In this document: positions 55,127 through 58,853 of the stretch, in pieces | How positions within the stretch are numbered: the stretch's first letter is position 1 | Layout of the letters: each line of letters opens with the position of its first letter | From: Erysipelotrichaceae bacterium | Lineage (GTDB): Bacteria > Bacillota_I > Bacilli_A > Erysipelotrichales > Erysipelotrichaceae | NCBI GenBank assembly: GCA_031272515.1 | Contig: JAISTR010000009.1 | Location: forward strand, 1 to 64,000 | Length of the DNA: 64,000 nucleotides | Reading direction: 5' to 3' | Notes under the pieces: model-generated | What the model saw: only the letters and a program-made list of their open reading frames with translations | The model's database searches: none | What the model was told of the DNA's origin: nothing | Position numbers and translations under genes: made by a program

Positions 55127-55282
55127 ATTTATTAAGAATGGTGGATTTAACTAAAATTAGATTTTTTTCAGTGAAAATATCACCATTTCGCTTGCCATAA
55201 ATGGGTTTTTCTTGTATTGTTTAAATAGATTTCCCTTTTTATTTTCTCCAAAATAATAAGAAGGGTCTGCAGGGAGGGTTTG

Positions 55283-57379
55283 ATGAAACTGGGGTTTAGA
55301 CAACGGCGGGGAAACTGCACGATTATTTTGCTTGTTTTTGTCCTGCTTTTCAGTGTAGCCTCCTGTAATAAAAAAGTACCCCGGTATGAAGTCCCCGACT
55401 TTACCAGCCAGACCGTGCAGGACGCCCGGCTCTGGGCGGATGAGCGGGACATTCAAATCGCCATCAAATACGAGTATCACGAGTCTGCGCCGGTCAATAC
55501 GGTACTGGCCCAGAACCTCGACCCCATGCAAACTGTCAGCACCGCCAATACCATCATTCTGGTGGTATCCAAAGGACCGCAACCGGTCATAAATGAAGAT
55601 GAGGAAGAGGCGGAAACGGTTTTGATTCTGCCGGACTTCGTCGGTTTGAATATTCTCGATGTCAAAAGCTGGCTGAGCAGTGAGAACCAGCAGCTGAATG
55701 TCAATGAAGTCTATATCTATCACAACACCATTGCCAAGGGTTTTATTATTGCGACCAAGCCGGCCGCCGGTACCATTCTCAATACCGATACCCTGACCCT
55801 GACGATTTCCTTGGGACAGCCGCGCCTGGATGATTTCAGTGCGAGTGACTACAGTCTTTTGGAAAGTCAGCTCAAGATATTCAATGACAATGGTGCCAAT
55901 ATCAATGAATCTTTGAGTTATGTTTATAACAGCACCGTCCCTGCCGGAAAGGTCATCTCCCAGAGCGTCTTTGGCATCCTGCCGGTTAATTCCAGCGTAT
56001 CGGTTGTGGTCTCGCTGGGGCCCAAACCCAATGTGATTGTCAAGGAAGAGACCAAGGTCGATCAAACCACTTCGAGTGTCCCTGAGCCAGCGGTACTGCC
56101 GGACTTTGTGGGCAAGAGTTTAAGCGAAGCCAAAACCTGGCTCAATGAAAACAGCTATCAGCTGGAAATCAGCTATCTTTATAGCAGCCAGGCAAAAGAT
56201 ACCATCATCAGCCAGGGCGACATTCCCAATGACAGCACCGGCAAGAAGATTGGCTTGACGGTTTCCCTGGGTGAATACAAGGTCCCGGTTTTTGAGGGAA
56301 CCCTGGAGAGCGCCAAACAGACCTTGAGTCAGGTGGCTACCCAAGGCGTCACGATTGAGCTGGTTGTCAAGGAAGCTGCCAGCAACAGCATCCCGGCCGG
56401 CAAGCTGATCGGCAGCGTACAGCAGTATGATACCGCTACGCATACCCTGACCCTGACTGTCTCTTTGGGGCCGTCAGTGGACAGTGCCAGTCAGCTGATT
56501 CTTTCCTCCACCTACCTGGGCAACAATACCAAGATCAAGATTTTGGACAAGAGCACTGCGGAATCCTGGACGCCGGATGAAGGCAAAGGCCATCCGGTCT
56601 ACATCGTAGGCGATGAAATTACCTTCCTGCGCTTGGTGAGCGAGAGTATAAGTAAAGGCGAGACTTTGATTAATGTGGAAATCAGTCAGTGGACCGGGGC
56701 CGGTCCGGACAACTTCAAGCCGCAGTTGAGCAAGGCCTTGAGCGCTTTGGATATGATCAGCGGCCGCAACTATTCGGTCAGCTACGCTTATCTGCTCTCC
56801 CCGACCAATGAAAATATCGTGATTGTGAGCCTGAGTTTCTATTCTTTGGATTCACTGGATCATAATGCGGCTGTGAGTGCCGCCAAAGAATATGTCAAGA
56901 CCTTAAGCGGCAAAACGGATAAGGAAAAAATCATTGCCATCCACAATTACCTGGTAGCCAATACCCAATACGACATGTCCGCTTTGGAGGCGTGGGAAGC
57001 CAGCGGCGGCACCTCTGAGCAGGGGGCCCTGTACTGGAATGCCTCGAGTGCCTACTGGGCTTTGATTGAGCACAAGGCCATGTGCACCGGTTATGCCCAG
57101 GCCTTCTATCTGATGGCCAAAGAAGCCGGAATCCCGGCCCTGGTTGTCTATGGCAGCGGTCCGGACAGCACCCACACCTGGAATCTGGTGCGAATCGACG
57201 GTGTCTGGTATCAGGTCGATACCACCTTCGATGATCCGGTTCCGGATGTTGCCGGGCGGATTCTCGATACCTATCTGCTGCGTCCGGTCTCACAGGGAGC
57301 GTTCTCAAACCACTATTACAACAAGACCTTCACCCTGGATGAAATGATCCAGTACGGCGATAAACTGTTTGCCAAGTGA
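55283..57379 (+). CDS. Surface lipoprotein with PASTA repeats and a transglutaminase-like domain
   Basis: A 698-residue lipoprotein (signal ending VASC, Cys28). About five PASTA-type repeats follow between residues 35 and 400, each ending in a strand like LTLTISLGQ or VVVSLGP and several starting with VLPDFVG; the fourth and fifth are less regular. After a linker domain (400-550) comes a transglutaminase-like fold with Cys601 (HKAMCTGYAQAF), His631 (STHTWNLVRI) and Asp646 (WYQVDTTFDD). PASTA domains bind muropeptides, so the enzyme is probably held at the cell wall and may crosslink or cleave wall proteins or peptides (inference). The start is the ATG behind AGGGAGGG. Confidence 0.85.
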   Translation: MKLGFRQRRGNCTIILLVFVLLFSVASCNKKVPRYEVPDFTSQTVQDARLWADERDIQIAIKYEYHESAPVNTVLAQNLDPMQTVSTANTIILVVSKGPQPVINEDEEEAETVLILPDFVGLNILDVKSWLSSENQQLNVNEVYIYHNTIAKGFIIATKPAAGTILNTDTLTLTISLGQPRLDDFSASDYSLLESQLKIFNDNGANINESLSYVYNSTVPAGKVISQSVFGILPVNSSVSVVVSLGPKPNVIVKEETKVDQTTSSVPEPAVLPDFVGKSLSEAKTWLNENSYQLEISYLYSSQAKDTIISQGDIPNDSTGKKIGLTVSLGEYKVPVFEGTLESAKQTLSQVATQGVTIELVVKEAASNSIPAGKLIGSVQQYDTATHTLTLTVSLGPSVDSASQLILSSTYLGNNTKIKILDKSTAESWTPDEGKGHPVYIVGDEITFLRLVSESISKGETLINVEISQWTGAGPDNFKPQLSKALSALDMISGRNYSVSYAYLLSPTNENIVIVSLSFYSLDSLDHNAAVSAAKEYVKTLSGKTDKEKIIAIHNYLVANTQYDMSALEAWEASGGTSEQGALYWNASSAYWALIEHKAMCTGYAQAFYLMAKEAGIPALVVYGSGPDSTHTWNLVRIDGVWYQVDTTFDDPVPDVAGRILDTYLLRPVSQGAFSNHYYNKTFTLDEMIQYGDKLFAK

Positions 57380-57468
57380 TTAATTCCCCCTGCAAGCGGG
57401 GGAGATTGTGTGAAATTTTGTGATTTATGCCATTTTATTGCGTTTTTTGTGTGGTTTCGGTATCTTTA

Positions 57469-57709
57469 TTGTGACGGGGCACTCCATTTTTGGGGGGAAA
57501 CACCGTCGCAATCATCACACAACGATATTTTCATCCAATGCCTTCACCAAAGGAGTAGATAGGGGGGGCCTATCGCATCTGATTTGTATCCGGGGGTTGT
57601 AGTAAATTGCGGATGAAAATGAACCTTTTATCGTTGTGCGTAAGGGCTTCCTTCCCGGAAGTCCTTTATAACGGACCACGTTAAACCTGCCCATTTCCGG
57701 GCTTTTTTT
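57469..57709 (+). ncRNA. Candidate structured non-coding RNA with terminator
   Basis: No credible gene fits this stretch, but it folds strongly. Stem A: 57469-57477 with 57503-57511 (9 bp) enclosing CTCCA/TGGGG. Stem B: 57518-57527 with 57629-57638 (10 bp) continued by 57528-57536 with 57611-57619 (9 bp) past a 9-base bulge, and holding GATAGG/CCTATC with a G5 loop. Stem C: 57642-57651 with 57657-57666 (10 bp). Stem D: 57669-57673 with 57679-57683. A GCCC/GGGC hairpin and T7 then end it. A weak promoter (TTGCGT, 17 bases, TATCTT) lies at 57438-57466. Four G-runs of 4-7 are unusual. It does not match RNase P, tmRNA, SRP or 6S RNA as I know them. Confidence 0.5.
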
Positions 57710-57754: not shown

Positions 57755-57785
57755 TTTTAGCACTTTCAACTTGACAGTGCTAAAA
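57755..57785. promoter_or_regulatory. CIRCE-like HrcA operator before hrcA
   Basis: TTTTAGCACT and AGTGCTAAAA, 11 bases apart, form a CIRCE element in which the innermost C/G pair of the consensus (TTAGCACTC-N9-GAGTGCTAA) is replaced. HrcA binds here to repress the operon. It overlaps the -35 box. Confidence 0.85.
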
Positions 57786-57799
57786 CCCTGGTCTATACT
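57771..57799 (+). promoter_or_regulatory. Sigma-A promoter of the hrcA operon
   Basis: Consensus TTGACA and TATACT with a 17-base spacer, inside and after the CIRCE-like repeat. Confidence 0.88.
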
Positions 57800-57838
57800 G
57801 TTAGCAGATGGAGAAAATGAGTGCCAAAGGAGGATCTG

Positions 57839-58853
57839 ATGATCAGCAAAAGAAAACTGGATATATTCAAAGCGATCGTCGAAGAATTCGTGGCTACCGC
57901 CGAACCGGTAGGCTCGAAGACTTTGGTCATTAAATATGGCATGGATTATTCCAGTGCCACCATCCGTTCAGAAATGAATGAATTGGAAAACCTCGGTCTG
58001 TTGGAGAAGACCCATACTTCCAGCGGCCGGGTGCCCTCCACCCAGGGCTACCGCTTCTATGCGGAGCATTTGATGGAATCAAAACTGGACAAGGACTTTG
58101 CCGTGGTTGTACGCTCGGTGCTCGAAGATACCAAGGCGAAGGCGGATGAAGTCATCCGCCGCAGCGTGGATATCCTCTCGCAGATGACCAACATGACTTC
58201 CCTGGTTTTGGGACCGGAAGCCAACATCCAAAGGCTGGAACACATCAAGCTTCTGCCCCTGGATAACAAGAGCGCCGTAGTCGTCATCGTGACCGACAGC
58301 GGCCATACTGAGAACAAGCTGTTCCGCTTTGAGGACAAGGTCAGTGTCACGGACTTGCAATCGTGTACCGACATCCTCAACCAGCAGCTTAAGGGAACCC
58401 GCATCGTCGATGTGGTCGACAAGATGAAGGCGATTGAGCCGATTCTGGCAGCCAAATTCCAAAGGCATGAAATTCTGTTCAAGGCCTTTCTGGATGCCTT
58501 TGTCCGCTTCGCCAATGACAACGTCTATACCAGCGGGGAGACCAACCTGCTCTATCAGCCGGATTTCGCGGATGTGGAGAAGCTGAAGTCGCTGATGAAC
58601 ATGCTGCAGAATCACCGCATGTGGCGCGATATCAGTGAAGGCAAGACCGAGATGGTCCTGCAGACATCCAAGAACTCGCAGCTGGCCTGGGTGAATGACC
58701 TGGCGGTCATCTCCAGCACCATCCGCGTGAATGATGGCGAAGAGGCGAAGCTGATGCTGGTGGGACCTTCCCGGATGGACTATGACCGGGTGGTCTCCCT
58801 GATTGACTACCTTGCCACCAGTATTGAAGAGATGTTTTTTACAGGAGGACGTG

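Follow-up and report, generated by a model that had tools for sequence, protein, structure and literature searches.

The gap between a lipoprotein gene and hrcA may well encode a lineage-restricted structured non-coding RNA of ~240 nt (about 57468–57709), either a small RNA or the 3′-terminal part of the lipoprotein mRNA. The data support a structured element without a match to known RNA families, and its cluster of hairpins probably belongs to a transcript. Because nothing alike was found in any other genome searched, we treat it as an RNA candidate that is unproven and confined to its lineage, rather than as a member of a known or widespread class; a new RNA class gains no support from the present evidence.

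Within the window (the whole stretch of DNA analyzed, 64,000 nucleotides), the gap measures 440 bases from the lipoprotein stop at 57379 to the hrcA ATG at 57839, and both flanking genes run rightwards, on the + strand. The lipoprotein gene (55280–57379) is PASTA/transglutaminase-like, with Pfam matches to PF03793 and PF01841. A first-pass annotation of this DNA had seen no plausible gene in the gap, and this holds: the listed open reading frames are short, and neither two of these frames nor a translation in all six frames gave a Pfam match. A decayed gene was rejected on the same absence of a Pfam match in the six frames. Paralogues of the lipoprotein’s transglutaminase-like C terminus are found in the same genome on contigs C29 and C51 (the best two at 41–49% identity), and PASTA relatives of the lipoprotein occur elsewhere in it as well. 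We inspected the regions behind the C-terminal paralogues and found no RNA like the gap element.

Sequence and predicted fold together define a series of helices on the + strand. A C5/G5 hairpin (57386–57402; CCCCCTGCAAGCGGGGG then AGATTGTGTG) directly follows the lipoprotein stop; having no T tract behind it, it is at best a poor terminator. Hairpin A (57468–57512) has a 10-bp stem, ATTGTGACGG/CCGTCGCAAT, with one G-U pair, and in the predicted fold it contains an inner 5-bp hairpin (CTCCA/TGGGG). Arm B (57518–57638) is a Watson–Crick helix of 10 bp + 9 bp, interrupted on one side by a 9-nt bulge; inside it are further stems and a GGGGG loop (GATAGG-GGGGG-CCTATC). It is followed by hairpin C (57642–57666), whose 10-bp stem, AAGGGCTTCC/GGAAGTCCTT, exposes a TTCCC loop, and by a terminator-like GCCC-ATTTCC-GGGC followed by T7 (57689–57709). 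The long bulged arm and the 10-bp hairpin (C) described in the first-pass annotation are present in the fold, as is hairpin A.

We compared these helices with several chance expectations. The interrupted 19-bp all-Watson–Crick helix of arm B was matched in none of 1,000 dinucleotide shuffles (shuffle maximum 17) and is the longest among 830 overlapping windows from 104 kb of the contig, where the runner-up reaches 17 bp and 9–10 bp is typical. Hairpin A (z = −5.1) is equaled in stability by 11 of 6,390 GC-matched 45-nt windows and hairpin C (z = −4.1) by 29 of 6,594, placing each in the top 0.2–0.5% for its GC content. The fold of the whole region reaches z = −3.7, a value equaled by 14 of 256 windows (∼5%) of the 64-kb stretch in a rough comparison whose background z-scores come from 14 shuffles each. 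The overall structure of the region is only moderately unusual, whereas arm B and its two neighboring hairpins are exceptional.

The 19-bp repeat, consisting of Watson–Crick pairs only, could equally be an inverted repeat at the level of DNA. It would then be a pair of MITE or transposon ends that later received a 9-bp insertion on one side and that has no function as RNA, an origin that we consider unlikely. This explanation accounts for the absence of any non-Watson–Crick pair among the 19 and for the fact that the repeat is perfect once the 9-nt bulge is omitted, and it agrees with a gap upstream of hrcA that is wholly different in relatives, which points to a rearranged locus. However, the element is single-copy: the next best match in its own genome has an E value of 0.97 over 18 nt. 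Distant blastn searches against plasmids and phages returned chance pieces of 42–46 nt only, and pattern scans of viral contigs recovered only the letters of single hairpins in unrelated contexts. Moreover, a target duplication beside the arms is not obvious, the inverted repeat is internal to a larger structure, and hairpins A and C and the T7 site are left unexplained. With one copy only and no target duplication to be seen, the MITE relic suggested in the first-pass annotation is disfavored.

Another explanation is that the gap is ordinary intergenic sequence, a long stretch without function 3′ of the lipoprotein gene, in which some hairpins are there by chance and others are old terminators. 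The frequency of comparable whole-region fold energies across the window is in line with this, as are the lack of conservation in the genomes searched and a promoter at chance level (below). We nevertheless find it unlikely, since the arm B helix has no equal in the shuffles or in the rest of the 104 kb and two more hairpins, each within the 0.5% tail or beyond it, lie <200 nt from it.

The orientation of the element and its signals were considered next to the structure. The + strand folds to −84.4 kcal/mol compared with −73.6 kcal/mol for the other strand, with nearly equal z-scores (−3.5 and −3.0, respectively). Hairpins A and C each include a base pair that forms as G-U on the + strand only; read from the opposite strand, the same positions would give an A-C mismatch. 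Both flanking genes are read rightwards, and transcription in that direction fits these G-U pairs and the stabler + strand. A weak promoter had been proposed to precede the element (TTGCGT-17-TATCTT; 57438–57466, +; 7/12 match); it does not rise above chance, being equaled in 634 of 1,000 shuffles, and is absent from the listing of consensus promoters. At the other end, a GC stem and T7 are both present, but the stem is only 4 bp long (GGGC), below the 5-bp threshold of the consensus scan, which thus missed this candidate terminator. Weak matches to the element from its own genome crowd on the 3′ end (57689–57709), whose letters recur elsewhere in the genome, as is expected for terminator sequence.

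The G runs noted in the first-pass annotation exist (G4 at 57476, G6 at 57492, G7 at 57562, and G5 at 57592), and runs of at least five G are locally enriched, with 3 in this 248-nt region and 57 in 64 kb. In the predicted fold only the G7 run sits mainly in a loop; the others are mostly base-paired, so that the placement of all four in loops or linkers does not hold up. The accompanying idea of a G-quadruplex was rejected, because a pattern of four G3+ tracts is not found even when loops of up to 25 nt are allowed.

Returning to the structured RNA that we favor, it would be read rightwards and would end at the GGGC-T7 site. It is at least as likely to be the structured 3′ terminus of the lipoprotein transcript as a small RNA in its own right, for the C5/G5 hairpin lacks a T tract and lipoprotein transcripts plausibly continue to the T7 site. 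The stable arms may protect the 3′ end of the RNA, and the single-stranded loops, TTCCC in hairpin C and GGGGG in arm B, could pair with other RNAs. The element may be a new small RNA, one of the options raised in the first-pass annotation. A more specific version, an undescribed genus-restricted structured small RNA that acts on RNAs through its GGGGG and TTCCC loops and is linked to the lipoprotein or the heat-shock locus, is one that we put forward only tentatively. If it is transcribed, the element would add another orphan small RNA to a bacterial family that has been little studied, probably Erysipelotrichaceae or one near it as judged from the named relative of HrcA. Young RNAs confined to one lineage offer a way to study the origin of structured RNAs.

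Gram-positive bacteria have small RNAs that derive from intergenic regions or 3′ untranslated regions and end in an intrinsic terminator, including a C-rich type with TCCC loops. The element resembles these RNAs in being intergenic and codirectional with its neighbors, in its several hairpins and TTCCC loop, and in its 3′ GC stem followed by a T run. In contrast to them, it has no promoter above chance and no homologue, and its terminator stem is weak at 4 bp.

We also considered a riboswitch-like leader or attenuator that would control hrcA through the T7 terminator. The T7 site does lie on the same strand as hrcA, 130 nt upstream of its ATG. However, hrcA has a strong promoter of its own beyond this site (TTGACA-17-TATACT; 57771–57799, +; 11/12 match), overlapping the CIRCE operator (TTAGCACTTTCAACTTGACAGTGCTAA; 57757–57783, +), and this arrangement amounts to normal HrcA autoregulation. 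Both features are outside the element, with CIRCE marking a separate downstream transcription unit, and their downstream position makes it unlikely that the element acts as a leader or riboswitch. The gaps 5′ of hrcA in ∼30 relatives have other upstream genes and no such element, while the promoter/CIRCE block is kept in nearly all of the hrcA-upstream regions read from relatives; the element is, therefore, not a conserved hrcA leader. Taken with the end of the element before hrcA’s own promoter and CIRCE, this leaves the riboswitch-like element of the first-pass annotation disfavored, and we regard control of hrcA by the element as very improbable. At 57801–57827, the beginning of the hrcA transcript is overlapped by another CIRCE-like repeat, a degenerate one (TTAGCAGAT-N9-GAGTGCCAA). 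This second copy is better in most relatives (TTAGCAGAC-N9-GAGTGCTAA), and tandem operators thus seem to be a family trait.

Searches for homologues covered known RNA families and genomes at increasing distance. An Rfam search of the region, using the gathering score and E values up to 5, gave chance matches only, in agreement with the earlier statement that the element is not RNase P RNA, tmRNA, SRP RNA, or 6S RNA. The chance match with the best E value was SprD (RF01828), which scored 16.1 bits against a cutoff of 100 and whose aligned part extends into the CIRCE repeat of hrcA. No RNA at this locus came up in a search of the literature. Blastn of the element against 59 relatives produced nothing beyond chance; a 42-nt match in one of them (G013) was dismissed as chance and sits within an apparent coding region. 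We then built a covariance model of the element from its single sequence and searched sets of genomes in which the source genome’s genus had no other member. The element itself was the sole significant match among 273 genomes of the family (0 of 272 others), 316 of the order (0 of 315 others), a class sample of 395 (0 of ∼394 others), and a phylum sample of 392 (0 of ∼391 others). Searches of >40 genomes used stricter filters, and the 40 nearest genomes were also run with normal filters. Weak matches in three genomes (G072, G112, and G037; E values of 0.05–0.46) are no more than chance would give in a search of this many genomes.

As a positive control, a single 6S RNA served to build a covariance model by the same procedure. 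This model found 6S RNA in 36 of 40 relatives, including the element’s own genome, where it lies on another contig (C49:46981–47134; E = 7.7e-8). Since the control detects 6S RNA across the family, the method sees such an RNA at this distance, and the element is not conserved as 6S RNA is. A strongly diverged housekeeping RNA (6S, SRP, RNase P, or tmRNA) is hardly credible: the size and arms of the element are broadly in range, and it is comparable in length to 6S RNA (RF00013) and likewise has a long helix with interruptions, but Rfam yielded only chance matches up to an E value of 5, with neither sequence nor structure matching 6S RNA, and a diverged 6S RNA in particular was rejected because the genome has its own at C49:46981–47134. 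The Rfam 6S model misses this copy, which lies within C49:46700–47400. That model passes its cutoff in 7 of 21 genomes searched, compared with the 36 of 40 found by the model built from one family member.
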